This document shows positions 63 to 62,462 of a stretch of DNA of 64,000 bases, in pieces. The notes beneath the pieces were generated by a model. It made no database searches. It was given only the letters and a program-made list of their open reading frames with translations, and was not told the DNA's origin. The stretch spans positions 2,037,762 through 2,101,761 of the forward strand of contig NC_049985.1 of assembly GCF_000003815.2 (NCBI RefSeq), in the 5' to 3' direction. The translations under genes and the position numbers were made by a program. Source of the DNA: Branchiostoma floridae (Eukaryota; Chordata; Leptocardii; Amphioxiformes; Branchiostomatidae). The stretch's first letter is position 1, and each line of letters begins with the position of its first letter.

Positions 63-225
63 CTATATATGGTCACCTGCTCACACCAACCGGACAGTCC
101 CGGTTACTGCTGGACTTCTGATGGGTGAGAACAGCACACTTTCTTATTACTACATGTACATATTACACATCATCGGCCAGTTCACACCAACCGGACAGTC
201 CCAGGTACTGTTGGACTTCTGATGG
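63..225 (+). repeat. TRAP1: Duplicated TRAP1 exon end with donor site
   Basis: Two copies, about 101 bases apart, of a segment reading [15 protein letters not shown] or a close variant. Each is followed immediately by a GTGAG donor (exon ends at 124 and 225). The phase fits the next exon at 482 (GG + C gives Gly, continuing SGSYELAEA). The first copy has a possible acceptor ending at 62, the second one ending at 180. Either the first copy is the true exon and the second a truncated duplicate, or both are duplicates of an exon left of the window. Confidence 0.6.
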
Positions 226-3200
226 GTGAGAAATTTGTTTCTAGAACTGGACAGTTTCTAGAACTGTAATGATGCAAATCTAAATTGCATAACTGAAGAC
301 CCAGTGTAGAAACAAGGAGAACTATATGGTCTTGTTCCATGCTTCTAGGTACAGGTACTGTATATCGTAGTGTTATGATTTCTGCCACAAACCTAGTGAT
401 ATTAAACTTGAAAGATTGATGATCTAAATTCCTAGAGTCAGTATGAATTTGAATCGACCAGAGTTGTATGTTTGTCCTCAGCTCTGGTTCTTACGAGCTT
501 GCGGAGGCGGAAGGCGTTCAGCTTGGTACCAAGATCGTGGTCCACCTGAAGAAGGAGTGTATGCAGTTTGCACGGGAGGACGACATCAAAGGTAATAAGT
601 GTGCCTGTAAACCCATATAGTTGTGACCTCTCAGGCTCTGGTATGTCCAAGGCAGTGTATGTGGTTTGTCATGTGTACATTCCTGCTACAGGCAACTCTG
701 CATCTGAACTTTCCTAAAACTTGTCAATATTAATTTACTCCCATAGGAGCACACATAAATCTGCATCTTACTACATACTGCATCAAATTAATTTTGTACT
801 AAAATGTATTTCTATGAAAAGAAGGATTACTTTTTACTACTACTAGTATATTGGATCTGTGTTGTCTTGTTCAGTTTTGAAAGATCAGCACTACTCAAGT
901 CCTTACTATGATCTTAAAAATGTAGAATGAGTTGCCTCCATATATACAGTTGTTGTTAGTTAAGACAATGGTTGGACTGTATTTTTCCTCCCTGACAGAA
1001 ATCGTGACCAAGTACAGTAACTTTGTGAACTGCCCCATCTACCTGAATGGGAAACGGCTCAACACTGTAGAGGTGGGTATCGATTATAAGTTCACTGTGT
1101 TCACATGTTAGTGGGGTCCTCTACTTTATCCAGGACATTTTCTTGACTAGTGTTAACATACAAAACAAAAAAACTGTACAAGTGGCTTCCTCTGCTTTGC
1201 CTAAGACACTTTCTTTACTATTTCTTTTCTGTATCTGAATCTATATAGCCCTTCAGCACAACACAACAACTTTGCAGGCATGCGGCACAGCAGCAGCTGA
1301 ATTGTTGAACAACCTGTCACATCTAACCTTTAACCTATTCATACGACTATGATGCAAATATCTCACTGGCGAAGTAGTCTCAAAACTAGAAAAGTGGCCT
1401 TTTCATTTCGTTATTGTTACCTTTTGTTATTTAGTTGTTCTTATTCTTGTATGTGTGTTCTTTCTCTATATACTGTAAATGCATTTAAGTTTGTGGGGAT
1501 TTAATTTGTTGTTTTTTGTCTTATCCTCATTAAAATAAATGTGAATTAAAAATTTTGCATCCTTTTCACCCAGGCCCTGTGGATGCTCGATGCCAAGAAC
1601 GTAACCGATGAACAACATGAGGAGTTTTACCGTTTCCTGGCCAACGCTTACGACAGTCCGCGCTACCGGCTGCAGTACCAGACTGACGCTCCACTCAACA
1701 TTCGCAGCCTTTTCTACATCCCTGCGCACAAGCCAAGTAAGATATGGAATGTAATGGTAGTGTGTGTAGCCCAGTGGTTAGCAACCCTGTCTGTGGACTT
1801 GTTTGCATTTGTTGAGGTTATTAGTAATACCTGGATGTCTAACCTTCATCGACGATCATGTACTTCTACTGTTACATTTAGGTACACATCCCTACCGTAG
1901 ACGTATGATAATGTGTTTTTTTTTTTCCAGCAATGTGGGACATGAGCAGACAGGAAGGCCTGGGAGGAGTAGCCCTGTACAGCCGGAGGGTGCTCATCCA
2001 GCCCAAGGCTGAAACCATCCTGCCAAAATGGCTGCGCTTTGTGAAAGGTATGGAACAGTATTTTGTTTTATTTCTGGTAACCAGTATACTGCCTTTAGGT
2101 GCAATGCACCAGTTCTGTACAGTAATATAAGCTGCATACATTGTAAGACATGACTGTATGGTCACACTGTGAAGGACCACTACCTTTCTTGTGGGTTCTT
2201 TTACATACTCGTACATGTAGCTCTCCTCAAACACGGGACCCCCTCATAAAATAGGACATAACTACTGAGTAAATGAGTTTGTAGGTTGAGGATGGGGAAA
2301 TACTGTACATTTTGTTACCTAAAGCATGCATGCCGCTTTACCATAAGATGTCCCTATGTTTGTACACTCACCTGTATGTTTTACCTGTCCGTTTTACCTG
2401 TCCAGGTGTGGTAGACAGTGAGGACATCCCCCTGAACCTGAGTAGGGAGCTGCTGCAGGACAGTGCACTCATCAGGTGGGGTATACACCTTGGCACACAC
2501 CTTTCTCATATTTTTAGTGTTGTATTGATTATCTGTTGAAATTAGTGGGACCAGAATGTTCATGTGTGTGATGTTACATCATGGAATGCACTTTTGCTGC
2601 CTTAGTAAGACACATGCTCTACTGTGAACATGGGTTTGACGGTTTCATAATCACACCCTCAAGAGGAAAGGATGTCTACATTTCTTTAAGACAACTTTAC
2701 GCCACTTTGGAACTGGCCCTCCCACCCCCAGGAGACTACATTAGCTCCTGTACTCAGACAACAGGAGCTAATTTGATGGTCAGCATGCAACATTGCCTTG
2801 ACAACATCTTCACTTGAACCATTTAGAATTGTCACACTTAGATGTCAATCCATATTGCAGGTACTTAAGTTCTTGACGTTGAACTTCAGATTCTGTTAAG
2901 TCACTGATAAAAGACAGTGGATGCTGTGTGAAATTGCCCATGCATCTGTAACAGAAGTTTAGCTCAGATCTCCATTTCTGTAGCCCTTGGGCTACACATT
3001 TGTGCAAGCCACTACAGCAGGGGGCTGGTCCGCTGGTAGTGATGTGTGTTTAACTTCCATACTCTTCCTCATTAGTGCAGAGTGTTAAGCAGAGAAAGCA
3101 GCATGTATCAATCCATAGTGTAGGTACTTAAGTTTCTGTTGAACTTCAGATTCTGTACAGTCTCTGATAAAAGAGGTTGCTGTGCCAAATATCAGACCTT

Positions 3201-6200
3201 TAACAAAACTCTCTGATACTCCCCCTCCCACAGGAAGATCCGTAGCGTCCTGACCAGCAGGATTGTGAAGTTTCTGGGTGACCAGGCGCGGAGGGACGCC
3301 GTTAAGTACCAGAGATTCGTGGAGGATTATGGGTTCTACCTGAGGGAGGGAATCGTCTCCACTGAGGACCAGGATGAGAGGGTGGGTCACATGTCCTTCT
3401 TATGTTTTTACTGCCTAATTAATAGCTCAGTGAGTAGAAAAAATGTATGTTTGTCCATTCTGGGTTCCTCCCTGTGAAATAGTAGCCTCTTCCATTAATT
3501 GACCTCATCACCTGGACTGTCATGTCATTCATTCTACGTTTTCACTGCTTAAGACTAAATAGCTTTAGGGTGGGTGCTGTCTTTTCTACATTTTCACAGC
3601 TTAAAAGCTCTGAGAGTAATTCATTCATAGTTGGTGAAAATAAAACGATGGTTGTGTAAAAAAGAGCCTCTTTATTCAGCTCTTAGAGTAATCAAAATGT
3701 GTCACTGTCCAGTCTTGGTTCCTCCCTATTAGCTATATGCAGAGCTGAAGGGAACACTGGTGTCAGTTGTTATACTGATGTTCTGTACTGTATTACAAAT
3801 GTGTTAGAAATTTGTATGGTTGATCACATATACATGTACATTACTCCTTCAGGAGTCCATAGCAAAGCTTCTGAGATTTGAATCGAGTACAGAACCAGAG
3901 GGAACCCTGGTAGTAATCGAGGAGTATTGTAAGCGGATGCGCCCCAAGTTACGCTGATGTTCTTTGCTGTATTAATGACATATACATATACATTATTTCT
4001 TCAGGAGTCCATCGCAAAGCTGCTGAGGTTCGAGTCTAGTGAGGAGCCAAAGAAAACACTGGTTGATTGATTAACACTGAAGTTCTATGCTGTATTAATG
4101 ACATGTACATTGTACATTATTCCCTCAGGAGTCCATTGCAAAGCTGCTGAGATTTGAATCGAGTGCAGAGCCGGAGGGAACCCTGGTGGGAATCGAGGAA
4201 TACTGTAAGCGGATGCGGCTCGAGTTACACTGATGTTCTTTGCTGAATCAATGACATCTACATGTACATTATTCCTTTAGGAGTCCATAGCGAAGCTGCT
4301 GAGGTTTGAGTCCAGTGCGGAGCCGGAAGGAACCCTGGTGGGAATCGAGGAATACTGTAAGCGGATGCGGCTCGAGTTACACTGATGTTCTTTGCTGTAT
4401 TAATGACAGTCACATGTACATTTTACATTATTCCAGGAGTCTATAGCAAAGCTGCTGCAGTTTGAGTCCAGTGCAGAGCCGGATGGAACGCAGATGGGGA
4501 TTGAATAGTACTGATGTTCTACATTCTATAGTTTTATGCTTAATCATATACATTATTCTTTCAGGAGTCCATCGCGAAGCTGCTGAGGTTTGAGTCCAGT
4601 GCGGAGCCAGAAGGAACGCTGGTGGGAATCGAGGAATACTGTAAGCGGATGCGGCCCGGCCAGAGGAACATCTACTACTTCTCAGCACCCAGCCGGCAGC
4701 TGGCCGAGACTTCACCGTACTTCGAAGCACTGAAGAAAAAGGACATTGAGGTGGGTTGGCGTGTTTAGAGATGTTCTGAGAGCCATGTCTTGGTACATGG
4801 CTTACCTGAACTTCACTAGATACTGATTTCCTACCTGTAGCAATATGATTGCCGGCTCTTTGGCTTCTTGGAAAAAATGATAGTAGTATGTACAATAATT
4901 AAATGGAAGGTCTTTACGTTCGAGTTGGACTCCTGTTACTTTGTAACTTGCTAATAACTGCAGAGTAAATACCCCTGGAAAGAGTTGCTTGGAAATGTGT
5001 TGTGAAGACTGTTTACTACTGCCCACCCGTGTCAGGGACCCTCGCAGCAGTATAATCGAATACCAGATACTGCCTGACTTTTAGTAGTATGATTAGTTTA
5101 GTTGCAGTTAGTTAATGGGTTAGTAGCTAACCTGTTGTTAACTTGCAGGTGCTGTTCTGCTATGAGCAGTACGATGAGTTAGTCCTGCTGCAGCTGCGCC
5201 AGTTCCAGAGGCTGAACCTGAAGTCCATTGAGAACGAGGTTCTGGAGAGCGACAAAACCGAGGAGACTCAGGAGGACAGCAAAGGTTGGCATTGGAATCG
5301 CATATGTGTACATATTAGTGTTTCAGAGGCGATAGGTACAGGGTGCTTTTCCCACCATCTGTCTTCATTGAGTGATGGTTACAGCACCATATCACTAATC
5401 GTTATTAGCCTATGGCTACTTCCCCTCAGCCAATGCAAAGCTCATTTTCTGTTGATATATATATATATATCGGTTTCTGTATGTACAAGTCGGTCAAATG
5501 CTTTTCTCTGCATTTTGGTAGCTTTATTTTCGTCATAACCATTATGATAGTTGCAGAAAAGTCTGAATTCACAGTTTTCCTACTGATGCTGTGTTTCAGT
5601 AACCCTGAGCCCCAGTAAGGCGGATGCCCTGATGGACTGGATGAGATCAGCACTTGGGGAGAAAGTCACCAACATCAAGGTACCTTTAAGTTCACCTGTA
5701 TTTGATTTCCCAGTAGGGAGAAAATGTGCTTGCAGTGGTTTTTAGTTTATGGATTAAACAATGTCGTAGGCAGACAGAACACAGATTATTGGTAAGAATT
5801 TTCAATGTGGTTTTAAGTTCGCAATGAAAAAGTTACAGTACTACAAAAAAACACCACAAACTAGAAAGGCCGACATTTGCTTAAGAGCAACTACAGCATA
5901 TTTCAGCCATACCCCTTCCCACGCAACATTGGACTGTTCCAAATCACCCCTGCGCAAAAATGGAACATCCTCTTAACAGTACATTATCCCCCAAAGTGGA
6001 CTGGTATTGTGAATTGACTCCAGGTAAAAACAGAGCTTGCTTCTATTTTTCAGAAAATGACAATAATCACACCTTCCATTCAGAAAATTTTCATCATGAC
6101 TGAAAATTGTTGAATGACTTCATGTAATGTCATTAACAATTTTCAGTACGATAACTAGGTGTAAGTTTAAAAAAGTATAAGCTCCTTGTGATGTGGGTAC

Positions 6201-9200
6201 ATTTATTATTGCAATGAACTTTTTTTATTCAAGTAGGGCATACAATTTAATAATTATCAAGCAGGTGCAGGTACTGTAGGAGCGTTTGTTTTCTTCAAGC
6301 TGTAAAACTGTTAAACTGTTTTACTTTGTATGCAATCAACCATCGAGCCTATTCTTATTTTAGTTTAACAACTTCCTGCCAGACCCGGAAGATACGATTG
6401 AACCTTGTTCGAGGATTTATTTTCGTCTGTCTGGTCAGTCTGTTCATACCCTGGCGCTGAGAGTGTTTTATTGGGCTGAAACTCTGGCAGTTTGAAGTTA
6501 CTTACAATTTAAATGTTCAAAGTTTATGCCAAACAACAACAGCACTAGGAAATGTGGCCACTATAGACAGGTGGTCACTATAGAGAAAATGCTGATCTAT
6601 TGACTAGGAGCCATACGTTACACATGATTTCAGTACACTGATCATTAATCATATAAACATTGCACAGGTAAGCCAATTGTTTAGATGTACAATTAAGTTC
6701 AAATAATTCTGAAGAGAAATATTGATGAGAAAATAATCATTCTCGCCACTGTCTAACTTATAATTACGTATCAAAACTAAACGCAGATTTTCTAACTAAC
6801 GCACCTTTCGCCGACTTCATCATAGGACCGCCGGCTATCAATCAAACACGGCTGTTGATTAGACTTAGAGTTTCAAACAGTCATGTGCTGTGCACGTGTG
6901 CCAGTTGACAGCGAACTTCATGCTACGTGATGTTTTACATTGCTTGGACCTTCTTTCCTACAGCGGTGCTTCTACAAAATATTTAGACTGTAACACTGAG
7001 TTTTATAGAATAGAATTTGACGCAGAACAGCGTTTTTTGCTGGGTATTTTTTTTTAAACATGTCCGTGGGAATATCAGCGAGGCGGCGACGTAGGGATAT
7101 CAGACCGTCAACAAAAGTCGCACGGCGGCTAACGGCGCAGCGAAGATACTAGCGCTATAAATAAGCGCTTCAACTAAGGATGGCAACCCGTACAATATTT
7201 TTGTATACTGTTGAGCTAAGTAAAGTTTGTTGTTTATGAGGTTTTAGTTGTCTTTGAAGCTTTGACCCGAAATATTTTAAAGTCAAACTGCTGAAGAGAA
7301 GTAAGTGACTGCTACGATTATCGTAGATATGGCCCTAAAAAAACTGATAAAAGAAGCCTTCTCAATAGCCTAAAATGCAAGAGCTTCCGGGGGGGCTTCG
7401 CCCACCTGGGTCCACCCCACAGTGGCCCTGCCCCTGGACCCCGCCAGGGACATTCGGCGGCCCCCGGACCCCTGTCCGACGCTTTGAAAAAATCCTGGCG
7501 AGAAGTCTGTACGGCCTGAGTCTTCAAGTTAACGTATTGTGTGGTCCCGCTTATGAATATTAATTAGCCTTCGCTTTCCTCTTCTCTGATTGGCTGAACC
7601 ATTAATTGAATTAACTCTTCCTGCCGGCTAGACGCAGGTGCAGATGTCGGCTCTGTGGGGTGAACGTCCGAAAGGTCACGGCATGGAGAACGAAAGAAAA
7701 CCAATTTCCCCTAAAAAAAGTGCTGTAATTAAGCCTTTTACAGTACTTTATGCCAAAAATTTTACTTGGATCATTTTACCAACTATATTATGCCTATCTA
7801 TACCAAATGTTACTCATACCAGGGTACAGGGGTGCAAAATATACCGTTATAAGACCGTCAACAACAGTCGCACGGAGCTAACAGCGCAGCGAAAATACCA
7901 TCGCTAGCGTTTCAACTTCAGATAACAAGTTATAAGTACTGTTGAACTCAGTAACGTTAAAGTTTGTTTTTAGTTGCCTTTGACGGTTTGACCTGAAACA
8001 GTGTTACGCTAAACTCCTGAAGAGAAGTTAAGTGACTGCTGCGATTATCATAGATATGCCCCTAAGAACTGATACAATATAAAGCCTTCTGAATAGTCTA
8101 AAATGCGAGAGCCTTAGGCGGGCTTTGCTCCCCCTGGCGGGAACACTGCTATATACGGGATCATGAGGCCCCGCTTATGAATATTAATTAGCCTTTGGCC
8201 TCCTCTTCGCTGATTGGCTAGGTCTTTGATTCAATTAACTCTCCGGCTGACGCGCACAGGTGTGGCTCTGTGCGGGGTCACGGAAGGTCACGTCAGGAGG
8301 CCAAAAGAAAACAAATTTCCCCTCAGAAAAGTGCCAAAATTAATCATTTTAAAGTTGTTTATGTCAAATATTTTACTTGAATCTTGTTACCAAGTATCTA
8401 ATGCCTATCTATACCAAATTTCAGGTCATTTAATTGTAATACCAGGATACAGGAGCCAAAAGTGTCCTTTTTTGGTCAAAAATTGGCCAAAAATCGCAAA
8501 AATAAGCATTTTGTTGCACTGTACATCAAAAGTGTTATTGAATTTATATGAAGGGATTATCAAGGCACATCTGTGTCAAATTTCAGCTCATTCGGTTGCA
8601 ATACCAAGGTACAGGAGCCAAAAGTGTCCTTTTTTGGTCAAAAATTGGTCAAAAAATCGCAAAAATAAGCATTTTGTTGTACTGTACACCAAAAGTGTTC
8701 TTAAATTTATATGGGGGCACTATCAAGGCACATCTCTGTCAAATTTCAGCTCATTTGGTTGTAATACCAGGGTACAGGGGCCAAAAGTGTCCTTTTTTGG
8801 TCAAAAATTGGTCAAAAAATCGCAAAAATAAGCATTTTGTTGTACTGTACACCAAAACTGATATTGAATCTATATGGGGGACTTATCAAGGCACATCTGT
8901 GCCAAATTTCAGCTCATTCGGTTATAATACCAGGGTACAGGGGGCCCAAATATACAGTTTTGGTCTTAAGATGACCAAAAAACCTTAATAAAATCATTTA
9001 AGAGACAGATATGGAAAAAATGAAAAAAACGCCCGAGGGTATTGGCCCACTCTACCCTTGTGCCAAATTTCAAGTCATTCGGTTGAGGAACAACGGAGAA
9101 ACCGTGTTCTGAAGATTTGACAGGAGAAAGAAAGAAAGAAACACTAGAAAGGCCGACATTTGCTTAGGAGCAAATACAGCATATTGCAATCCATCTTCAT

Positions 9201-11843
9201 CCTGGAAAAAATCCCAAAATTCAACAATTTGAAGTACTGTTTGCTCAAAGGGAAAATGAAGTACTGTGGGCACTTGTCCTACACACCTTCATGCCGAATT
9301 TTAGGTCATTTGGTTTCAATATAAGGGCATAGGAGCCAAAAATATACATTTTTTAGTTAAAAATGGCTAAAAACCCCAAAATAACTCATTTCATAAGTGC
9401 TCTATGAAGAAAGTGTTGATGGGGTCCTGTTGTCATATGTCCAATTTACCTTTGTACCAAATTTCAGGTCAGTTGGTTTACATACAAGGGCATAGAAGCC
9501 AAAAATATACATTTTTAGTCAAAAATGACTGAAAACCCCAAAATAACTAATTTTTGAAGTGATCTATGAAGAAAGTGCCAATGGGGTCCTGTGAGCATAT
9601 GTTCAATGCACCTCTGTACCAAATTTCAGGTCATTTGGTTAATATACAAGGGCATAGGAGCAAAAAATATGCATTTTTAGTCAAAAATGGCCAAAAACCC
9701 TAAAATAACTCATTTTTGGAGTAAACAATGAATATAGCGTTGATGGGGTTCTGTGGTCATATGTCAAACGCACCTCTGTACCAAATTTAGGTCATTTGGT
9801 TTTAATACAAGGGCATAGGAGCCAAAAATATACATTTTTCGTAATAAATGGCCAAAAACCCTAAAATAACTAATTTTTGAAGTGATCTATAAACAAAGTG
9901 TTGATGGTTTTCTGTGGTCATATGTCCAATGCACCTCTGTACCAAATTTCAGGTCATTAGCTTGTAATACCAGGGCACAGGGGCCCAAAAAGTACATATT
10001 TTGTCTAAAAATGACCAAAAACCCTAAATATCATAAATTCTAAGGCCTCTATTAAAAAAGTGAAAAAAACACCTGGGGGTATTTGATATCCCTACCCCCA
10101 TGCCAAATGTCGGCTCATTTGGCCCAAAAATGAAAAAGTTAAAGGGGTCTGAAGATTTGACAGGAGAAGAAACTCAGCAAAAACAATATATTGCAATCCC
10201 ATACTATGTATGGATTGCAATATAATTACGAATACAATACATTTCACCATACCTATGGTATGGCTGAAATATAAAAATTGCGCTTGGCTACATGTACAGT
10301 ACATGACTGCATCCCTTTCTAGTTGTAACAACCAAAGGCCAGGGTATCAACTCTCCACCCTCTGGTGCAGATGTAGAGTCACAAACCACAACTTTGGCAC
10401 ACTACATGATACACATCTCTATTCACAAAAATGTTTAATCAATAAAACACAGAAGCTGCAATCAGTGTGCATGTATTTTCCAAGGTGAGCACGCGTCTGG
10501 AGTCCCACCCTGCCATGGTGACAGTGATGGAGATGGGCATAGCTATGGAATAAACTCTGCTGAATAGTTACCTAGCTGATTTAAATCTTAGCACTTTATA
10601 ACATACTGCACTGTCTTGACAATATTGCGCCCCAGGTGAGCACGCGTCTGGAGTCCCACCCTGCCATGGTGACAGTGATGGAGATGGGCGCGGCGCGGCA
10701 CTACCTCCGCACGGCCTTCGCTGGACAGTCCGAGGCTGAGAGGTGGAAGTTCCTCCAGCCTACCCTGGAGATCAACAGCAGGTAGATTTTTGTCATTATC
10801 TAATCTTGTTATTGTCTTATGAAGGCATTGACCACAGTAGTTTTACTTCACTATATACAGATGTATACCTTTGATTGTAAGATTTATTAGTTTTGTAGAA
10901 TATTTCTTGCTACAGACTTGTGTTTAAATACTTTGTAGTATTATTACAATGTTTTACCAAAGAAAGGAAAATATTAGAAAAAAAGCAGGTAGATTCTGCT
11001 TCAAATTCCATGTATGAAGATTGTGTCTTAACATTTAGCTTTGAGTACAGGGATTTTATTGACGTCACAGTAATTATGATTTGAATCCCCCGGTATTGGG
11101 AGGTAATTGGACTTGAGCAACAGTATTGTATGTTGGTGTGTTAAACAGATGCACACTCTAACCTTACAGGGTGCAAATGATGTAAAATGGACGCCTGTAT
11201 AGAAGGCAATTCCTTGTTTTAACAAAAAGTCTCATGTCAGTCTTACAATAACCTTTTTCTTTCTCGCAGCCATCCGATCATGTTGAAGTTGTCTGAGCTG
11301 AAGTCCAGCGACCCTGAGCTGGCACGACTGGTAGCTGAACAGGTCAGGCATTGTTTGTTTGTTTATTAATTTGTTTGTTTATGTCAGTTTAAACATACCA
11401 TAACATAGCAATGTTCAATCTACAATTCCATCCATCCACTGTACTTTGTAGCATGCATAATCCCGTTTTTAATTGGGGTTTCATAAAATCCAAAAAGAAG
11501 GAAAACTAAACAAGAGAGACAAGTGCCCCTAGACCAAAGATTCTGGCTGTTTTTGTTCACCCGGCATACGTGTAACAAGCATGCGTTGCATTGCATTGGA
11601 AGGGACATTAAACCATGGGTACAATGAACCTGTAAATAATGTACATAGCTTGTATCTTCTCTGTCTGGAAGAGAATCCCAACTTTTTATTGACTTCATTA
11701 AAGCAAACTTCACTTCCACTTTGCCATCCTCCCTTCCTCAGGTGTACGACAACGCCCTGGTGGCTGCCGGTCTGATTGAGGATCCCCGCTCCATGCTGAA
11801 CAGACTAAACGAGCTGCTGACAAGAACTTTGGACAAACACTGA
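63..11843 (+). CDS. TRAP1: TRAP1, mitochondrial HSP90-family chaperone (3' part of gene; 5' part lies left of the window)
   Basis: TRAP1 is the ATP-driven HSP90 chaperone of the mitochondrial matrix. Exons read from the sequence: 482-591, 999-1072, 1574-1736, 1931-2047, 2406-2475, 3234-3381, 4565-4750, 5149-5284, 5600-5679, 10636-10781, 11270-11342 and 11742-11843 (TGA stop). All have GT-AG borders and compatible phases. From exon 482 on they encode 467 residues, the number expected from the matching point to the end of the roughly 700-residue vertebrate protein. They cover the end of the N-terminal ATPase domain, the middle domain with the conserved NLSRELLQ loop (exon 2406) and the C-terminal dimerisation domain ending in [14 protein letters not shown] further exon end encoding [12 protein letters not shown] lies at 63-124 and again at 181-225; which copy is used is unclear. 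The intron 5680-10635 carries a Helitron-like insertion. Partial exon duplications sit at three exons. TRAP1 rather than cytosolic HSP90 is indicated by the sequence and by the absence of an MEEVD tail. Confidence 0.95.
3853..4564 (+). repeat. TRAP1: Array of five truncated copies of a TRAP1 exon start, each with its own acceptor
   Basis: Copies begin right after an AG acceptor at 3853, 4005, 4129, 4281 and 4437. The complete exon follows at 4565-4750. Each copy starts GAGTCCAT (encoding [12 protein letters not shown] or [12 protein letters not shown]). In frame, each runs into a stop: TGA at 3955-3957, TGA at 4068-4070, TGA at 4231-4233, TGA at 4383-4385 and TAG at 4506-4508. Spacing is 124-156 bases and includes the upstream polypyrimidine tract. 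Only the last copy continues through the [15 protein letters not shown] segment to a donor. Copies 1, 3 and 4 carry a GTAAGC that could act as a cryptic donor, but using it would shift the frame. Confidence 0.92.
7101..8400. repeat. Roughly 750-base tandem duplication inside the Helitron-like element
   Basis: Blocks starting AGACCGTCAACAA at 7101 and 7853 share the same ordered motifs: a CGCACGG-containing start, a CTGAAGAGAAGT block, a GAATATTAATTAGC motif and an inverted CCAAT box (GATTGGCT). The second copy is shorter and more diverged. The same two blocks occur in reverse inside 40200-41450. Confidence 0.75.
8400..8990. repeat. Minisatellite of about 165-base units in the Helitron-like element
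   Basis: About four units, each with CCAAATTTCAGCTCATT, then ACCAGGGTACAGG, then GGTCAAAAATTGG and AAGCATTTTGTTGTACTG. Openness of the unit in several frames produces spurious open frames of about 150-200 codons. The same array is seen reversed at about 39600-40140. Confidence 0.85.
9144..10225 (-). mobile_element. Nested Helitron-like element with its own minisatellite
   Basis: The - strand 3' end is CTAG at 9144, with a perfect ATTTGCT/AGCAAAT hairpin upstream. The 5' end is TTATATTGCAATCC at 10225. The insertion splits the host sequence between GAAACA and TTACGAAT; uninterrupted versions of that junction occur near 39100 and 39405. The core (about 9250-10060) is a minisatellite of about 160-base units with the recurring phrase CCAAATTTCAGGTCATTTGG and AAGGGCATAGGAGCC. 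No coding capacity was recognised. Confidence 0.75.
10485..10553 (+). repeat. TRAP1: Truncated duplicate of the TRAP1 exon start at 10636
   Basis: The first 18 codons ([18 protein letters not shown]) of the exon at 10636 are repeated here after an AAG acceptor. The copy then diverges and hits TAA at 10551-10553. It lies 151 bases upstream of the real exon, the same acceptor-side arrangement as the 3853-4564 array. Confidence 0.85.
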
Positions 11844-48600: not shown

Positions 48601-51600
48601 CGGCTGATTGACTCCTCTGTAGCAAAACTCCCTTGGAAAGTTATTGGAAGAAGTTTATTTGCAAGTTCATGCCCGAGGGCTAATAATTGCAAGTACATGG
48701 TAGAAACATAGGAGATATACAAGTGGCAATGAACTAGTCTCTACCAGATTCCTGATCGCTGGAAAAATCGTAGAAATGGAATATAGCCGGCCAGGGAACA
48801 GTACGCGATCCACAGTCGACAGACTATATTCCTCTGGCCGGCTTACTCCTCTATTTGTTCCATTTCTACGATCACCAGCGATCCGGAGCAATGAACAGTT
48901 ATAAACAATTTTCTACTCTAATACTAGTGTTGGCTATTTCTAAACAGGTTGGGTTTGACTTCTTTTTTTGGAAGCAGAGGGAGACGAAAAATAATAGCAA
49001 GCGTAGTTAGACTAACGATGCTAGCCAAGCGAAGCATACATGATGTACCCGGCGCGGCGTATCCGGTACGTCAGACGCTGGGGCGCCTCTCCTTCCCACA
49101 TGTAAATAATGAATGAATGTCTGCGTGAACGTCCTTTATTACAACAAATCCGAAACGACTTTTCCTCAACAAGCAGCTTAAACGACCTTGAAAATGAAGT
49201 GTTGGCAAAACAGAGGAAATGAAACTTAAGCAATTAGGTCGCATCAGAGCAAACTAAATATTTCCTCTATGTCTCATTCTTTACGTATCGCTGTTAACAC
49301 CAGATGTCAATGATATATGTTTAATTGCCCTATTCTGTTAATAGCGTTGCGTTCCGAGTACAAAACGTCCAGGCATACAGATACAGAGCACAGATATAAA
49401 ATATGAAGCATCAGAACAATGTAAATATTTTATCTACACTATATCACTATAATCACTATATAAAACATGCGGAATGCATCAATGATGTTTCTCTGTTGAT
49501 GACGTAGCCTGATTCAATCGCGCTTCTCAGGCCCGCCGTACATTGCCGCGCCGCGGGGAGGAGGCTACAAGCTCTGGATAGCGGAGTTTACGTTACACAG
49601 ACTATTGATGACGATGCTATTTGATATCTCAGGATGCAGAGAATCGATAGAACATATGAACTGAGACTGAGGCAACTTGACCGCATCAGCAAAACACTGT
49701 AAATGTTATATTTCCTCTTCCCTATATCAACAGACAATCAACTATGCCATACTCCATGCACCAGGGACCAAAAATGTTATCATTTCGAGGTACTAGGTTT
49801 CATCAATACAGTCCATCCAGGCATTCTAGAGTGTCTGGATGGATTGTATTGATACTTGATGTGTGGGTATCAAGTATAAGGACAATGTCAATGCCTTCGC
49901 TGCCTTTTATCAATGTTACAGCAGACAGCAATGATTTTCCCCTCGCTGTGACGTGTGTTGATGGCGATGCTAAAGCTGGTATCTCACTGCACTTGGGCAC
50001 CGGTGCGGCACTGCGGGGTTCGTTCATTGCGGCGCTGTAATTATTTTCGCCGAATTTTTTATGATCTAAATATTGGTAAAAGTATGACTTAGAGGACAAC
50101 AAAATACACTCGCATAACGCAACAAAACTCGTTCTTTATCTCTGGAATGCGTTGAGTATCTTTCGAACCCCGCAGTGACACAAGCTCGACGCAAGTGCAG
50201 TGAGAGTGCATGCCTACACTACCTAGCAGACATCAATGATCTTCCCCTGGCTGTGTCGTGTGTTGATGGCGTTGCTAACCGATTTGACATCGCGATAATC
50301 GGATTTCCTCGGCTCCGATGCTAAGAGCTTCTTCGAGCATCACGTCCCGATTAGGGTGACGTTATTAAGTTTGATGACGTCTCCCGAGGATGATGATTGC
50401 CATGGTAACGTACGCACTCCTAGCCGACCGTATGTTCACAGGCTGTTAAACAGTCAATTATGACATTAGAGTTACTCCAAGTCTAAGTGCTTTTCTCTAT
50501 AACACTATAACACATTAAAGTGGGATTATGTGGCGTATACGTAACTGAAGCTCACCAAAACATGGCCTCCACCCATCGTGACCCAAGAACGTAATTGCAG
50601 GGTATTTGGTTCAGAAGCCAGAGGTCCAGGGTTCAAATCCCTACATATGCTGCGGATCTAGTGCCCTCGTGAAAGGCACTTTACGCGATTTCCCTCACTT
50701 CACCCAGGTGTAAACATGGGGATCTGACTGCGGTTTGGGAGGTAAAAGGTGGTGAAAGGAGAGGGTTGGGCTTCGCCTCTCAATACTGTGCCCTAGCTAG
50801 ATACAGTGGATAACAACCCACTGCCCTATGCCGGATGGTCCTAAAATGATATAAAACGGCTATTGGACTACGTTATCTTAAAAAAAGCTATTCCTTTTGT
50901 GTTCCTCTCACTGGATCTCAAACGTAAGAGGATACCTAAGTCAATTAGTAACTGCGTTATCTGGTGGGAACCTTTGAAAGTTTCTTCATAACATCCCATT
51001 GAAGACCTAGACAGGTTGCCATCCTTAAGTTTCCGCGGATCCCATGGTACATAGTACGGCTGCGGGCATCCAGGCTATTGAAACCTCAGCCCCTTTAATT
51101 TCTTGAACATGTTGAGATTCATGGTTATCTAATATCTTCTGCATCTTGTGATCGGTTCATCAGAGTCGCAGCTGGTTGTACCTAGAAGTCCGTAACACTG
51201 AATGGGGATGAGTAAGGTCTTCATATATCAGAAATACTATCAACCTTTCTTTCTAAATCTGCGAGTAGGTTAGCCTCAAACGCTCTTTTACAATTTCTAT
51301 GATTCGTCAAATTCTGTGTGTTGTCTTTCACCCAATATGCACACTATTGGAAACAGTTCCAATGGGACAGGACACCCACTTCTCATCGTATTACCACTAC
51401 TTGTCTTCTCTGTCGCGATCGCGAACAGTCGGTAGCTTAGCTCTTCGATGGGCTAAACTGGTTTGAGATCACTTTCACGGGATAACTGGCAGTAAGGATA
51501 TCACCGGACAGATGACCATGGCAGCACTAGTTGTTCGCAGGTTCTCACGTGTCAGTCAGGCCTGGGGCTGTCACACGGGGTCAGTCACCTCTGATGACCT

Positions 51601-54821: not shown

Positions 54822-56054
54822 CAACTGCGTCATGTCCGGTCCATAGTTTATTAAGACTTAGTACTTATTCCATGATTAAGATGTAGAGTACTTCTGAAAT
54901 AAGGAGCAACTAAAATGCCGGATAATATGCAGGGGTCACATTTTCCGAACTAAGGCCCGGTCGGACAGTTTGCAGGAACAAAAACAAAGTGTATATCAAC
55001 AAATATACACACTATGCTCATTTTGTACATTTTGTGTGCTTTGACATTTGTCGTTTAACGTTATATCATACTTTTCTTTCCCGCAAACTTACCGGTCGGG
55101 CACTGGTTTGAAAATGTACCCTGGTATCACTTATATTACATTGATGTTGTACATTACGAAGACTGTCAAGTTGTTTAAACAATGAGTTAAATTGATCTGG
55201 TGTTGTACATCATGAAGTTGTTAGATAAGTTTTGGTCTGATGTTGTACATCATGAAGTTGTTTAAATTAGTCTTGATCTTTAAGTCAAGAGCTGAATTTT
55301 AGCTGAATGATTTTCTGTCTAACACGTAGTCAGTTATACAATAGCAAAGGAAATTATTAACGTTATGTTCTGTAAATACTTTGTGGAATTGTGGATCATG
55401 GTTGATAGAGATAATGAATGAACTCAAAACTATATGTGAGCCATTTCGATTCAATGTCGAGTTGAATATGTATAATGTAAATATTGATATGTCAGTGGTC
55501 TTCCGTTTGACTGTACGTCGCAAAATGTTCCGGAAGGTATTCCAATTACAAAAGTGTACATCCTACAGGCTTAAAGATTGTGTGCTTATTTAGCCTCACG
55601 CACAAATACCCCTTAGATAAATTAATCAGGTTGGAAAATCGTTGTGTAAAATGTTCTTTATGCTTAACCAAAGAGTTATAATGGCGGTGACCACCAGATT
55701 GAGGAGGCTGTATAGATATGAAAATCCACGTCAGTCATGGCCCGTGATAAGGGGGGTATAGAATATAGACTCAGTCACGTTTGGGACCGCATTCTTCACA
55801 CTGCAGCAGCGACGCCTAGCTGCAGTGCGAAGTAGAACAAGTCATTCGTCAAAAAGCAGGTACTCAAGCAACTGGATATGATTTCGGAAACGGTCAGACG
55901 TTTCAGACAACCATCCGGTGTCTTTCATTAGTGACACCGGACAAGAAGTCATTATTAATATGAGGAAGGTGACAGACAATCACTGGAACAACGGCAGTAT
56001 TTGTTTGTTTGTTTGGCTGTAGTAACTCTGATTGTCATTCAGCCTCACAGATAG
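54822..56054. other. Convergent intergenic region, sulfotransferase 3' side to GPCR 3' side
   Basis: Holds both 3' UTRs. A short minisatellite at about 55139-55265 repeats GATGTTGTACATCATGAAG three times. No canonical AATAAA was confidently assigned to either gene. Confidence 0.5.
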
Positions 56055-59000
56055 TTACTCCATGGCAACGGAAGAGTTCCTTTCAGAGCTGTCGCCCGCC
56101 TGGCTCCCCATCTCCAACCCCGACGATCGCGTACTCTCGTTGGAGAACGCCTCCTGGCGGCGAAGCAGACGCGCTGCAACGGACAGGCTGCTGACGTCAC
56201 AGGACGGCCTCTGGCGGGACGTCCAGGTACTGCCGCGCCGTGGATCCAGGATCTCGCCGCCGCCACCTTGCGAGCAGCAGCAGAACAGCAGGGAGTCCAT
56301 GTAGAGCTTGTACTTCCGGCTGAGGATGTAGAGGGCGATGGGGTTCACGCAGGAGTTGAAACTTCCCAGCGTTAACCCGAAGTGATGCGCACCTGCAAAG
56401 AGAAGATGGAGCTGTCAAATTGTCTCATCTTTGATAAAAAAATCATTTGGTTTAATGATTAATTGAAAGTACTGTAAAAGTTTGGAGTTGTAGGAATCTG
56501 ATAGAAATGAGGAACATAACGTTATATCTAAGCAGCACATAAACTAGAAAAGGGTGGGGCTGTTAAATTGTCCCATCTTCGATGAAAACCTTTTGTTTTT
56601 CATAAATAGTTGAACATCCTGTCAGTGTAAAAGTTTGACGTTATATGAAACTGATAGAAATTATGAACCTGTAAATGAACTAGAACATTGTCAGGAAAAG
56701 ATCGTTGAAGTCTGTGACAAATCCTACAAGTTTTTCTAAATTGCTGAAGTTGGAGGTACGATATTGATAGTACACATGTAGTTGTTGGAAATTATCTCAC
56801 CGTTCTAAGGACTACAGCCCTTCCAAGTAGCGGGTACATCGCGTGAGTGCCACAGCCGAAATGGACTATGCACGCTACTAGTCTCTACCAGACTCCGCAT
56901 CGCTGGAAAAACCGTAGAAATGGAACAAATAGAGGAGTAAGCCGACCAGAGGAATATAGCCGGTCGCGATCCACAGATCGCGTGCTGTTCCCTACTGGAC
57001 CCTAGCCGGCTATNNNNNNNNNNNNNNNNNNNNNNNNNNNNNNNNNNNNNNNNNNNNNNNNNNNNNNNNNNNNNNNNNNNNNNNNNNNNNNNNNNNNNNN
57101 NNNNNNNNNNNNNAGCCGGCCATATTCTTCGGGCGGGCTTACTCCTCTATTTGTTCCATTTCTACGGTTTTTCCAGCGATCCGGAGTCTGGTAGAGACTA
57201 GTGAAACGTTTGGGGTGTTTGGTATCTAAGTCCTATATTAGCTTATCAGGAACTTAGCCAAACCAGTCGATTACTATTTGTGAGCCGTGTTTATTCAACC
57301 TATGCTAAACTCAAGTAACATATAATACAATGTGCTTCACTAGGAGTACAGCAGCAAGTTACAGTTACAGGATACAGGTCTAGGATAATGATACAGAGAT
57401 CTAAGTATATTTACAGAGAGAGTCGGTCTAACTAACTAACTAGTACACAATCCAACAGAGGGACTAAGCCCTACTTAAGTACCTCACCTGAGTCCTTGGG
57501 GCACGAGACTGACTAAATCTCTTCATACAATCTCTAAGGTTAACTTGCATGACAATAGGATGTATAACTCCGCCCATCACAGGTAAGCTGGTTGGATGCT
57601 GTCGGCATCCAGCCAATCAGGGATTACCAAATATGCTAATGTCAGCTCCTCCTCATATGGTCTAGACAGTCATTACCTAATTATCTCATATGTCAAAGGT
57701 CATGGCCGTTACACTAGCACGCTACCTAGCTTGAAAAGTATCTCACCTTGCAGAGCGCTGAAGGTGCAGATGTTCTGCAGGACGGAGCAGGGCAGGGTGA
57801 TGCGGAGGATGTTGGTCAGGTGGAACGGCAACCAGCACAGGGCGAACAGAGCCACGTGTGGCGTAGGCCTTACCACATGGCATAGGTCTAACCACCAGTC
57901 TACGCCCGATACCTAGAAATTACTAGTATCTCACCTTGCAGAGCACTGAATGTGCAGATGTTCTGTAGTACCGAGCAGGGCAGGGTGATGCGGAGGATGT
58001 TGGTCAGGTGGAACGGCAGCCAGCACAGGGCGAACAGAGCCACGTGTGGCGTAGGCCTTACCACATGGCATAGGTCTAACCACCAGTCTACGCCCGATAC
58101 CTAGAAATTACTAGTATCTCACCTTGCAGAGCACTGAATGTGCAGATGTTCTGTAGTACCGAGCAGGGCAGGGTGATGCGGAGGATGTTGGTCAGGTGGA
58201 ACGGCAACCAGCACAGGGCGAACAGAGCCACGTGTGGCGTAGGCCTTACCACATGGCATAGGTCTAACCACCAGTCTACGCCCGATACCTAGAAATTACT
58301 AGTATCTCACCTTGCAGAGCACTGAATGTGCAGATGTTCTGTAGTACCGAGCAGGGCAGGGTGATGCGGAGGATGTTGGTCAGGTGGAACGGCAGCCAGC
58401 ACAGGGCGAACAGAGCCACGATGCACAGCACCACATGTGACGTAGGCCAGTAACCACTAGTCTACGCACGCTACCTAGAAATGATCTCACCTTGCAGAGC
58501 GCTGAAGGTGCAGATGTTCTGCAGGACCGAGCAGGGCAGGGTGATGCGGAGGATGTTGGTCAGGTGGAACGGCAGCCAGCACAGGGCGAACAGAGCCACG
58601 ATGCACAGCACCACATGTGACGTAGGCCAGTAACCACTAGTCTACGCACGCTACCTAGAAATGATCTCACCTTGCAGAGCGCTGAAGGTGCAGATGTTCT
58701 GCAGGACCGAGCAGGGCAGGGTGATGCGGAGGATGTTGGTCAGGTGGAACGGCAACCAGCACACCGCGAACAGAGCCACGATGCACAGCACCACCCGGGC
58801 CGCACGGCGGCGCTTCGTCATACGGTCGTCCATCCCACGCGTATTCTGGATAAAACATGGGGGAGACTTGAAATGTGGGGAATACAGAAAATCACATGAT
58901 TTAACTTAATATACTATTTCTGTTGATTAGGCCACTGCATGTAGTTTTATCTGTCATTGCACAGCTGTACCTGTGTGGCCAAGGGTCTGAAGAATTGGGG

Positions 59001-62000
59001 ATGGGTGCCGCCATATCTGCCTTGTGATGTGGGAGATATTTTGATACGAAGTAATCTTGCTAACATTATGTAAAACTTAAAAAAACAATATATACACGCC
59101 TATAAAATATTCTTTCCACATAAGGATTACATACCTTATGAGAGTTGCTTTGATGTACGGGGCTCTGGAAACGTGAAGGATGCAAAGGAGGATACTTTCA
59201 AGAGTATTCATCTACACAAATACTCTTGTGTATTTTGTTTCTTCCGTCCGGGGAGACAACTTGTAGAGGTGACCTGTCACCTGTTTTGTCTCGCCCTCCA
59301 TTTGATATGGGCAGTTCAATAAATAAACAATAAATAAACAAACACAAAACGGGACAAAAACAAGGTAGTTTTTCCCTTTACCCTGTGTAACCGGTCCACT
59401 GTCATCATGTGCTTGGCCATCAGGCTGTAATGCACCGCCGTGACCGCCAGGGGGAGGCAGAAGTAGAGGGCGAAGCGCAGCCACACCCGCCAACGGTTGT
59501 ACGTCCGTGCAAAGGGGCTTTCCTGGTAAGAAAATAGGAATACAGTTATTCCAACATTGGTAACCTTCACTTGTGAACTCTTTTGTCCGATAGGTAAGGC
59601 CATGCTGAATTAATTATATTGATGACATCCTCTGAGACCAAACCTGACTCGAGTGTGTGAATGAAAAAAGTTTGGCCAAAAAAAGTTCAAAATGAAATCT
59701 GAGTGTCAGGAAGATTGAACAAATAACCAAACACACAGGGTATGGAATATCGAAACACAGATTCTTCATTTTTGTTCTTTCACACCTTCCTTGTCCTTGG
59801 AGTTGACATTCCAATAGAAAGACGAAAACCCCATCAGGGCGGCCAGAGACCAGATACAGAAGCTGGTCAGGTGTGTTACGCCGAAGGACGGGTATACCGA
59901 CTATGTAGAAACAGATACAGATACAGAAACAGGAACCTCCACCTGGTCCATGCCGCAGACGGTGATGTTGCCCCCGTGCCAGGGGACCGAGCGGGTTGTG
60001 TAGGACACCGCGGCGGGGACGGCGATTAGGGCGGCCAGGGACCAGATACAGAAGCCGGTGTGTTACGCCAATGGTATACGGGCTATATAGATACAGAAAC
60101 AGAAAACCCCACCTGGTCCATTCCGCAGACAGTAATGTTGCCCCCGTGCCAGGGGACCGAGCGGGTTGTGTAGGACACCGCGGCGGGGACGGCGATTAGG
60201 GCGGCCAGGGACCAGATACAGAAGCCGGTGTGTTACGCCAATGGTATACGGGCTATATAGATACAGAAACAGAAAACCCCACCTGGTCCATTCCGCAGAC
60301 AGTAATGTTGCCCCCGTGCCAGGGGACCGAGCGGGTTGTGTAGGACACCGCGGCGGGGACGGCGATTAGGGCGGCCAGGGACCAGATACAGAAGCCGGTG
60401 TGTTACGCCAATGGTATACGGGCTATATAGATACAGAAACAGAAAACCCCACCTGGTCCATTCCGCAGACAGTAATGTTGCCTCCGTGCCAGGGGACCGA
60501 GCGGGTTGTGTAGGACACGGCTGCGGGCACGGCGCTCAGGGCGGCCAGGGTCCAGATACAGAAGCTGTTGAGTTACGCCGCAAGACGATACAGATACAGA
60601 AACGGAAAGGCCCACCTGGTCCATGGCTCTACACTCTTTCCCATGGTCGGGTTGTGTTTAAAACGGCGGCGGGCACGGCACTCAGGACGGCCAGGGACCA
60701 GATACTGAAGCTGGTGTGTTACGCCGAAGGACGGGTATATCGGCTATAAAGATAAAGATACAGGTAAACCCACCTGGTCCATCCCACAGACGGTGATGTT
60801 CCCCCCGTGCCAGGGGACCGAGCGGGTTGTGTAAGAGACGGCGGCCGGCACGGCGCTCAGGGCCGCCAAGGACCAGATCAGCGCCAGCCGCACGCCCAGC
60901 CCCCGCCAGCTCTGAGACAGCCGGCTCATCGTGGACGACACCACCGCTGTGTACCTGTCATCACACAAACGGTTGTCACAAGACATCACGTGGGCATTAG
61001 TTCTTCACAATGCAACAGCGACAAAGTGGCTGCAGTGTCACAAGTGGAACAACATAATGGTTGGTTTTGCCCTGGGGATGGACACCGACAGTCACCAAAA
61101 TGATAGTAAATAATTGTGCACTGGTTGTGCGAAACATCCGAAAGAAATCTTCGTACATTATCTAGTTGTCGTCTTTCAATAATGCCGTTGTCCTGATAAT
61201 CAAATTTAACTGACGCCAGGTTTCAAATTGCAGTGTTTTCATAATAGCAACTGTCACGGTCCGTCGACTTGACATCCCTAGATATCCTGTTGCTAGACAC
61301 AAGTGATATAGGTTATCGCTCAGATAAAGGTGTACTAGCGTTACCTTTCAATCTAAAGCACTAGGTGACTGTTCCTAGAGCTGCAACCGAACAACTACTG
61401 AAATAGCTCACATGTACCTGTCCGCACTCAGAGCCATGAGTGACAGCACCGTCACACCCAGAGACGTCTGTTGCAGGAACGGCAGCAGTTTACACATCGC
61501 GGTGCCGAATATCCAGTCCGTGGGGACCGTGTACAGGTTGTAGGCTGTGAGCGGCACGCACAGCAGGATGAACAGCAGGTCTCCGCACGCCAGCCCCGCT
61601 AGCAGGACGTTGGGAGCGTTCCTCATGTCCGGCTTGGTCGCGACGATTCGGATGACCAGCGAGTTACCTGTGTGGGGGAGGAGAACTCGTACATGGTGCC
61701 TTCCTAATAGATTTCATCTATAATTGATCAATGTATGCTGATAAAATGAACCAAATATTTACCAACGAAGAGAAATATAAATATAGATTCTTGCTCAGTT
61801 CCCATTGTTCCTGAGAAATACAAAATGTACTATGAAAACAATCGAAAGACCTACATATACTCGAAGAAGTCAGTAAAACGGTTTCTACTGTCTCAAAAGA
61901 ATGAGCCAAACCCCTAACGTTAAAACATAAACTAGCTCGATGTATATTTTAGAATGTTGTATACTTTGCTCTTGATATCGATATCATTGTAGTAATCATG

Positions 62001-62462
62001 GACATATCTATGTTAATAAGTATATGTTGTAATAATTTTTAATTAGCCCTCTGGCATGTGTTTGCGAAAAACATTTTGCTAATTGTTACCTGTCAAGCCG
62101 AGCGCGAAGATGACTGCAGAGAGGATGATGTGGGTGATCTTGGCCGCGTGGTCCACGGTGATGGGGCTGGGGCAGGGCAGGTCGGCTGTCTCGCTCGGCC
62201 GGGGGATTCTGATTTTGCAGCCGACTTCCTTTCGGTTTGGTTTCGACGTGGAATTCGGCGGGGTCTCTGTTGTATAACTGTAAGATGTAGAGCCATGTCC
62301 AGGGAGAAGTGTGGCGAAGCTGTCGGTCTGAAGAAGATGTCCGTCCACAGAAGTTTGTAGAGAGCTACTGGCAGACGTTGTGTTCCATTCACCGAGCACG
62401 GTGGAGCTCCACAGAAACACTGCTGTTATGTGTACCGAGACGACGAGTCTGCTCGACGCCAT
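56055..62462 (-). CDS. Class A peptide GPCR, bombesin/endothelin receptor-like
   Basis: Exons on the - strand: 62462-62090, 61667-61418, 60954-60774, 59522-59382, 58845-58671 and 56392-56055 (TAA), 485 residues with consistent phases. Exon 1 encodes a signal peptide (about 1-24), a Ser/Thr-rich ectodomain with NTT and NST sequons, and TM1. Exon 2 encodes TM2-TM3, with RNAPNVLLAGLACGD and ending ALSAD; DRY (about 207-209) spans the junction. Exon 3 is TM4 with ECL2 Cys (ITVCGMD), pairing with Cys in TAMCKLLPF. Exon 4 is TM5. Exon 5 is TM6 with CWLPFHL. Exon 6 is TM7 with NSCVNPIALY and a CCC membrane anchor. The NPxALY form instead of NPxxY and PNVLLAGLACGDLL are shared by bombesin, endothelin and GPR37 receptors. 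The ligand is unknown. An acceptor at 62513-62515 and a GTAAGT donor after 63788 suggest a 5' untranslated exon upstream. Confidence 0.9.
56877..57202. mobile_element. Palindromic MITE-like element with an assembly gap in its centre
   Basis: ACTAGTCTCTACCAGACTCCG at the left and CGGAGTCTGGTAGAGACTAGT at the right are exact inverse ends. Inner arms include GTAGAAATGGAACAAATAG and its complement. Ns fill 57014-57113. It lies in the last GPCR intron. Confidence 0.85.
57014..57113. other. Assembly gap (100 N)
   Basis: Exactly 100 Ns, a placeholder size. It sits in the loop of a palindromic element flanked by GCCGGC motifs. Confidence 0.99.
57747..58670 (-). repeat. Array of five truncated copies of the GPCR TM6 exon end
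   Basis: The complete exon is 58845-58671. Copies of its 3' part, each ending at the same CTGCAAG/GTGAG donor, have exon ends at 57747, 57935, 58123, 58311 and 58491, with spacing 188, 188, 188, 180 and 180. Each encodes about VALFALCWLPFHLTNILRI to the donor; copies differ by few bases. They lack the acceptor and the basic KRRRAARVV start. The units include about 60 bases of adjoining non-exon sequence. Confidence 0.93.
59832..60773 (-). repeat. Array of truncated copies of the GPCR TM4/ECL2 exon end
   Basis: The complete exon is 60954-60774. Copies of its 3' half with the GACCAG/GTGGG donor end at 59943, 60113, 60283, 60453 and 60616. The spacing is exactly 170 for the first three intervals, then 163 and 158. 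A fragment continues to 59832. Each encodes roughly WSLAALIAVPAAVSYTTR through ITVCGMDQ but has no acceptor. The 60616 copy is internally degraded. Adjacent ATACAGATACAGAAAC microrepeats are part of the unit. Confidence 0.92.

Follow-up and report, generated by a model that had tools for sequence, protein, structure and literature searches.

Introns of two unrelated genes in a 64,000-nucleotide stretch of Branchiostoma floridae DNA (the window, analysed here as a whole) contain partial copies of the adjoining exons. What are these copies, can they give rise to new exons, and why do they differ from the working exons mainly at silent sites? A preliminary description had placed five arrays of such copies in TRAP1 and in a GPCR gene. 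Both assignments held at all five places: a 233-aa query joined from exons identified TRAP1 (E = 5.4e-82), and the best match of the GPCR was endothelin receptor type B (E = 1.7e-30). Copies were found at each place, with a similarity far above chance (E from 1e-11 down), and all of these decoys, as we call the copies outside the working exon, lie inside introns flanked by recognised exons (Table 1). Tandem arrays, however, are present at only four of the five places; the one at 10485 is a single copy.

Table 1. Partial-exon copies and the working exons beside them, in window positions.
Feature	Position	Strand	Details
TRAP1 donor-type decoys	76-232	+	2 of 4 copies of the 3' end of the exon preceding T1; exon parts end at 124, 225
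TRAP1 T1, next full exon (for orientation)	482-591	+	
TRAP1 acceptor-type array	3853-4564	+	5 decoys; exon parts start at 3853, 4005, 4129, 4281, 4437; AG in each
TRAP1 exon T7, working copy	4565-4750	+	
TRAP1 single partial copy of the T10 5' end	10480-10538	+	59 bp, 58/59 identical
TRAP1 exon T10, working copy	10636-10781	+	
GPCR exon 5 donor-type array	57747-58670	-	5 decoys; exon parts end at 57747, 57935, 58123, 58311, 58491; unit 180-188 bp; GT in all
GPCR exon 5, working copy	58671-58845	-	exon ends at 58671
GPCR exon 3 donor-type array	59833-60773	-	5 decoys; exon parts end at 59943, 60113, 60283, 60453, 60616; unit 158-170 bp; GT in all
GPCR exon 3, working copy	60774-60954	-	exon ends at 60774

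The first TRAP1 array (63-225) had been guessed to be donor-type, and the guess was borne out by a working exon upstream of the window (L009 9288-9457, equivalent to window positions -474 to -305) and by four decoys in all. Two of these are also upstream of the window (L009 9288-9737 holds the exon and both), and the two inside it (76-131 and 177-232) are 91% identical at a spacing of 101 bp. The copy of T10 is of another kind. Its exon portion of 54 bp is identical to the working exon, the shared intron sequence amounts to no more than some 5 bp, and the 92 bp between the copies resemble the upstream intron at the level of shuffled sequence (104 of 200 shuffles reached the score). It is a lone copy with no true tandem unit, and marginal as a member of the class. 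The GPCR arrays have homogenised internal units and divergent edge units, as mirage minisatellites do: exon 5 copies 58311, 58123 and 57935 have one differing exon site and a common intron part, exon 3 copies 60283 and 60113 are identical and have the same intron part as 60453, and edge copies 57747, 59943 and 60616 are more divergent than the inner ones.

Mirage minisatellites have been published for amphioxus Adh3, globins (BflGb6 and BflGb9), PGBD5 and TnC (PMC3087553). The Adh report that the preliminary description had mentioned exists as a reference in that paper, where globins have the same structure; this is a known feature of amphioxus. The arrays of T7, of GPCR exons 5 and 3 and of the exon before T1 consist of the same thing, a unit over an exon-intron boundary, and are new examples of it. 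As in the known cases, tandem units cover one boundary on the acceptor or donor side, most copies keep AG or GT, internal units are homogenised, and unit length is similar (about 100-190 bp in the window arrays, 150-160 bp in the globins). Unlike the known cases, they occur in TRAP1, an endothelin-receptor-like GPCR and, outside the window, GRP94, where both ends of one exon are copied and a whole exon is duplicated.

Acceptor copies lie upstream and donor copies downstream of the full exon in all five window cases, as proposed. This arrangement arises because the copy that is continuous with the remainder of the exon keeps working. Position thus follows from geometry and survival of the working exon, and a lineage rule beyond geometry was dropped. 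Either exon boundary can be copied: in the window genes, two cases are on the acceptor side and three on the donor side. The arrays in the window do span a splice junction, but the stronger claim that one junction is always included fails in GRP94, where a whole exon (TLDMIKK) with both junctions is present in two copies.

The feature had also been suggested to be widespread. Its distribution is patchy instead: 7 of 9 GRP94 arrays lie at junctions, whereas none (repeats of at least 45 bp, offsets 40-700) was found at the 29 domain-matched exons of five CCT genes. Against a null of shifted positions, arrays at junctions were in excess when five loci were pooled (14/23 versus 7.3, P = 4e-4), an excess that rests on GRP94 and for which the junctions of the GRP94 and HSP90 genes are approximate, being edges of tblastn matches. 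Within TRAP1 (3/7 versus 3.2) and the GPCR (2/3 versus 1.9) there was no enrichment. Pfam scans covered one plus-strand frame of 1-14001, one minus-strand frame of 56001-63992 and, from about 17450 to 57000, all six frames. They matched HSP90, 7tm_1 (below the cut-off), zf-HIT and Sulfotransfer_2, and because the scan was domain-based, the junction list is without exons that lack Pfam domains. In 15 unannotated 10-kb stretches we counted 16 arrays, irrespective of exon content. Three further candidates in the window were rejected as mirages or exon copies: the ZNHIT intron tandem at 22669-23386, since the zf-HIT exon (22443-22521) is outside the repeat; 56399-56668, which ends about 7 bp short of the last-exon acceptor; and 49920-50278, a supposed sulfotransferase exon with no family match at the site. 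The periodicity scan also flagged 37727-38268.

The published 157-bp BflGb9 mirage was recovered in this same genome (L039), and its array matches the independent published description. The two globin genes here are 42 kb apart in divergent orientation, which fits BflGb5 and BflGb9; the same divergent pair was described in a draft assembly, although trace data contradict the draft's orientation of the pair (PMC3087553). When BflGb9 was polarised with BflGb5, one of six polarisable changes was derived in the real exon and five in the decoy (4S:1N, where S is silent and N nonsynonymous); so it was the decoy that moved there and not the real exon.

The arrays could in principle be an artefact, with haplotypes expanded or mis-joined during assembly, an outcome the preliminary description had named as a refutation. 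One BflGb6 mirage had earlier been assembled wrongly in a draft (PMC3087553), near-identical units occur in the GPCR exon-5 array, a run of 100 Ns stands near that array (57014), and Ns follow the BflGb9 decoy. Divergence among the exon parts of most units, however, runs from several to tens of percent, is mostly silent and follows a coherent coding pattern, and the BflGb9 array matches one obtained independently. We consider this explanation very improbable for most units.

The arrays had further been suggested to be a route to exon gain. This was not borne out: reading through the real donor met a stop before the next copy in 3 of 3 cases, as did all six reads from acceptor decoys, and only one of 13 donor decoys tested (60616) reads on open. 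Intron gain by tandem duplication requires a duplicated AG/GT within coding sequence. Such gain (PMC4974935, PMC3443670) likewise starts from duplicated exonic sequence near splice signals, and an intron-gain model built on mirages is already in print (PMC3087553), but the window copies appear to stay within an existing intron and we found no new intron or exon. Mutually exclusive exons are also tandem exon copies inside an intron; they carry both splice sites, whereas each of the five window cases is part of an exon with one junction. The GRP94 TLDMIKK exon, whole and in two copies outside the window, has both sites and is a candidate for that class. Partial-exon copies beside an exon are expected by-products of array turnover and no evidence for new exons, which bears on claims of exon gain.

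If decoys were dead from birth, their silent differences would be the real exon's own evolution. In the four window-gene arrays (19 decoys), differences common to at least two decoys were almost all silent (28S:1N), private differences were half nonsynonymous (28S:29N), and those found in the real exon alone numbered 7S:1N with one unclassified; the shared and private classes differed strongly (Fisher P = 7e-6), though site counts are not fully independent, copies in one array having common ancestry. Purely neutral debris is compatible with the private changes at first sight, with the stops or indels in decoys c4437, d60616 and d9501, and with GRP94 taken by itself (18S:12N, P = 0.07), where neutral decoys are not rejected and the short arrays VSDR, GTTV and LNAK have no silent excess. 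Yet even private changes are too silent for the neutral expectation of about 0.29 (P = 0.001), and c4129 and c4281, neither of which is the real exon, differ by silent changes alone. Pooling the four arrays, seven GRP94 arrays and BflGb9 gave 90S:46N, with unique GRP94 counts entered by hand, against a silent share of 0.45 expected for a constrained real exon and neutral decoys (P = 5e-7). The bias was also present outside the window's genes (27S:15N, P = 0.009). In addition, exchange simulations yield no shared class that is nearly all silent: with two-way exchange and selection on the real copy alone, the shared silent fraction was 0.27-0.61 compared with 0.97 observed, and this model was rejected. 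We regard neutral debris as improbable.

Exon parts were less diverged than intron parts in all three arrays compared, barely so in one (0.174/0.309, 0.129/0.142 and 0.040/0.143), and the real exon and a decoy differ at 7% to 51% of silent sites. Setting four decayed decoys apart, a post hoc split, gives 15S:23N for these versus 48S:8N for the rest. The anatomy and the bias are directly observed in the window's genes; their repetition in GRP94 and BflGb9 is weaker. We did not find the bias in the mirage account of PMC3087553, and we make no claim of its absence from the wider literature; set beside that account, it is a new observation. The decoys apparently derive from exon ends that were coding-competent, or else remain under weak selection.

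Decoys might instead be recent captures from deeply divergent haplotypes or introgressed lineages, coding-like at arrival and neutral now. In a simulation of one-way capture, the shared silent fraction was 1.00 and private changes came out nearly neutral, and amphioxus heterozygosity is very high (3-4% in B. floridae, a genome-wide figure not specific to these exons; PMC12862219). In GRP94, decoys also agree with the exon found in another copy of the gene. A second, partial GRP94 copy on C2, without the 3' exons, may be non-functional; it differs in arrays from the copy on C5, and the two were counted as gene copies. At 6 of 9 sites in AESS and 2 of 3 in SRKE, the C2 copy has the C5 decoy state and not the C5 real-exon state, and the DMFQ decoy of the C2 copy is identical to the C5 real exon at all three sites. 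However, because silent distances are mostly well above 3-4%, recent capture from ordinary haplotypes is strained. Selection-free capture at 4% diversity yielded only 1.5-2.9 silent differences of about 26 sites (Nc = 1-10); 13 were reached at Nc = 0.1, but the decoys had then decayed strongly (private 36.6S:71.2N). In the real arrays, silent differences go up to 9 in c4129 and 13 in d60283, alongside at most one nonsynonymous change. Capture of this kind appears rather unlikely to us.

Selection might also act on the decoys, directly as alternative exon ends or indirectly, if germline or somatic contraction made a decoy the real end. Simulated exchange with a small cost for broken decoys put the shared silent fraction at 0.99-1.00, with some 6 silent differences when diversity was 4%. 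Splice dinucleotides are intact in 31 of 33 decoys (tallied by eye, with one decayed VSDR copy excluded), and somatic instability has been reported at Adh3 (PMC3087553). Direct use, however, would mostly add one of the stops described above, broken and good decoys coexist, and the decoy adjoining the real exon has a stop in 3 of 4 arrays. We hold this explanation as a tentative possibility. As modelled, the simulations disfavour neutral two-way exchange and leave coding-competent descent and weak selection inseparable.

The reading that we favour, and consider probable, is that the window arrays are amphioxus mirage minisatellites whose decoy exon parts come mostly from coding-competent exon ends by re-seeding or exchange. 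A segment straddling a junction would be duplicated in tandem through slippage or unequal exchange, and the copy attached to the remainder of the exon would keep the working role. Since each decoy has one splice site, and splicing there instead of at the real site would almost invariably bring in an in-frame stop, decoys would plausibly be ignored by exon definition. In a large and diverse population, functional exon ends may seed them anew time and again, or exchange sequence with them. Variants that copies have in common are nearly all silent, and a few truncated or damaged decoys have decayed. Weak selection against broken decoys may be added, the array being unstable.

A bolder version, which we think unlikely, treats the decoys as a coding-competent reserve of exon ends. 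Each would be one recombination away from the role of the real end, as arrays contract and exchange, and in a population of more than 1 million such indirect exposure would purge amino-acid changes and loss of splice sites. If this were true, selection would reach untranslated intronic copies by way of array instability.

These results extend the mirage oddity to new genes in a patchy manner, dense in GRP94, present in TRAP1 and not seen in the five CCT genes. Untranslated exon fragments with mainly synonymous differences would have passed through functional exons or been indirectly exposed to selection. Mirages may therefore offer a natural test of how fast recombination swaps the exon ends of a gene, and of whether selection can act on sequence that is only potentially coding.

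Self-comparison of the window (G000:C7:2037762-2101761 in the 513-Mb genome assembly) yielded 20 local repeat groups. Partial-exon copies carrying one splice site, here called decoys, were present at all five places where the preliminary description had reported arrays. However, the copy at 10485 is no clean tandem unit, because the other 92 bp separating the copies match the upstream intron no better than shuffled sequence. AG is present in all six copies of the TRAP1 exon T7 array, while one of the four decoys at exon T0 has lost its splice site.

Genes, arrays, and gene copies (L numbers denote stretches outside the window)
Feature	Location	Strand	Remarks
TRAP1	window	plus	
GPCR	window	minus	nearest to endothelin receptor B
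zf-HIT exon and Sulfotransfer_2 gene	between TRAP1 and GPCR		
TRAP1 T0 array	63-225		four donor-side decoys after real exon (outside window, L009 9288-9457)
TRAP1 T7 array	3853 to 4437	plus	five acceptor-side decoys upstream of real exon at 4565
TRAP1 T10 copy	10485		single copy: 54 bp exon + 5 bp intron
GPCR exon 3 array		minus	five donor-side decoys; GT in 6/6 copies
GPCR exon 5 array		minus	five donor-side decoys; GT in 6/6 copies
Second GRP94 copy	G000:C2:34446001-34453700 (L011)		other chromosome than C5 gene; without 3' exons
GRP94 whole ~70-bp exon (TLDMIKKI...FWKEYST)	L012/L013 (reverse complement, joined) 13842-14052; L011 5972-6193		two tandem copies

Similar ~162-bp tandem repeat arrays at 8327-10172 and 39477-40236, one within a TRAP1 intron, are oppositely oriented with similar translated frames, and look like a repeat borne by a transposable element. 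A 20-bp minisatellite of ~100 copies (15440-17438) has long open stretches in all three plus-strand frames. Two copies offset by 462 bp (37734-37799 and 38196-38261) share an open frame to the same stop (MDSSS(A/T)PHV...KYSH*); eight of their nine differences fall at third positions, yet five are synonymous and four nonsynonymous. The pair may mark the end of a coding exon absent from the annotation; the frame may also be open by chance, since stops occur in the flanking frame. Upstream of T0 by ~4.3 kb lies another tandem array (L009 4471-5078), with offsets mostly in 57-bp steps.

Amphioxus minisatellites that span an exon-intron boundary are known as mirages, and the Adh precedent mentioned in the preliminary description is genuine. 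PMC3087553 cites the earlier Adh3 report, proposes an intron-gain model, and describes length variation between haplotypes plus somatic instability at Adh3; PMC3902484 adds PGBD5 and TnC. We located the published mirage of globin gene BflGb9 (period, 157 bp) in the assembly examined. Two divergently oriented globin genes 42 kb apart fit the draft's BflGb5/BflGb9 pair, for which trace data pointed to another orientation than the draft, according to PMC3087553. Together, the mirage and the globin pair make B. floridae the almost certain species. A 117-bp tandem pair (L041 778-1000) begins at a globin donor site and contains almost no exon sequence. An intronic tandem duplication in the GPCR (56399-56668; 147-bp offset) was rejected as a mirage; it ends ~7 bp before the last-exon acceptor.

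Acceptor arrays do lie upstream and donor arrays downstream of the full exon in the window, but as a biological rule this fails, for geometry alone yields the pattern. When a tandem duplication spans an acceptor, the last copy keeps the rest of the exon, and the partial copies therefore lie upstream; one spanning a donor would leave them downstream. The placement is arithmetic, not biology. A junction-less partial-exon array would sit in a coding exon and alter the protein, and so would seldom be retained; "one junction" would then be what is left over. Nor do arrays always contain a single junction: in GRP94, the whole TLDMIKK exon is duplicated with both. Both splice sites are found on the copies, the pair occurs in both GRP94 gene copies, and it is a candidate for mutually exclusive exons.

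Genes surveyed for junction arrays were picked by family rather than repeat content. Of nine local arrays in GRP94 on C5, seven lay at junctions (1.45 expected under shifted positions), as did two of three in the partial copy on C2 and none (0/1) in an HSP90 gene. Neither TRAP1 (3/7 versus 3.2) nor the GPCR (2/3 versus 1.9) exceeded its expectation. Pooling these five loci gave 14 of 23 arrays at junctions versus 7.3 expected (p = 4e-4), an excess carried by GRP94. A second, intron-poor HSP90 stretch (L015) had no array. Across five CCT genes two local pairs turned up, neither of them near any of the 29 domain-matched exons. Junction arrays are real and patchy, dense in GRP94 on C5 but not "widespread"; the proposed enrichment at splice junctions holds for the pool, with none demonstrable in the window alone.

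Each decoy has a single splice site. Read-through past the real donor reaches a stop in all three donor arrays, as does reading onward from six of six acceptor decoys; of 13 donor decoys tested, 12 run into a stop and 60616 stays open. Judging from sequence, exon definition would favor the sole copy flanked by both acceptor and donor.

For four arrays (T0, T7, and those of GPCR exons 3 and 5), with 19 decoys in all, each decoy's exon part was set against the real exon. Differences shared by at least two decoys were 28 synonymous and 1 nonsynonymous, and those private to one decoy were 28 and 29, the latter including three stops; the real exon stood apart from all decoys at 7 synonymous, 1 nonsynonymous, and one unclassified difference. 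Against a neutral synonymous share of ~0.29, even private differences were too silent (p = 0.001). With a constrained real exon and neutral decoys, the expected share is ~0.45. Adding seven GRP94 arrays and BflGb9 (9S:3N) to these four gave 90S:46N (p = 5e-7), and the excess extended beyond the window's genes (27S:15N, p = 0.009), although GRP94 by itself was not significant (18S:12N, p = 0.07); because copies share ancestry, all these p values are guides. Omitted from these counts were the TRAP1 T10 copy, whose exon part is identical to the real exon, the whole-exon copies of GRP94, and a decayed copy from its VSDR array. In a post hoc split, four visibly damaged decoys gave 15S:23N versus 48S:8N for the remainder. 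All three arrays examined for it showed less divergence in exon parts than in intron parts, one of them by a narrow margin.

A stop is present in the decoy adjoining the real exon in three arrays out of four (c4437, d60616, and d9501 at L009 9501-9601), whereas the changes scored put none in the other 16. By hand arithmetic, the chance of such confinement is 4 in 969, for a pattern spotted after the fact.

The C2 copy of GRP94, whose homology to the C5 gene stops at L011 7700, may be non-functional. At exon AESS, the C5 decoy and real exon differ at nine sites, and the C2 exon sides with the decoy at six; at SRKE it does so at two of three. At DMFQ, the C2 decoy is identical to the C5 real exon at all three sites. 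Decoys can therefore carry the version found in another copy's exon. Polarizing BflGb9 by BflGb5 points in the contrary direction, with five of six polarizable changes on the decoy, four of them silent.

Possible causes were explored by small forward simulations (4% diversity, six copies), toy models run with two or three seeds each. Neutral two-way exchange gave a synonymous fraction among shared differences of 0.27-0.61 versus 0.97 observed. When decoys were instead captured one way from other haplotypes' real exons, the fraction reached 1.00, but silent differences were too few or decay was far heavier, a mismatch that a several times higher local diversity would remove. Exchange with a small cost for broken decoys gave 0.99-1.00 and ~6 silent differences per decoy, where the actual decoys have 2 to 13. 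These models do not choose between one-way capture and exchange with a cost. Silent distances between real exon and decoy, at 7-51%, mostly exceed the B. floridae heterozygosity of 3-4% given in PMC12862219, which favors long coexistence of exon and decoys over recent capture.
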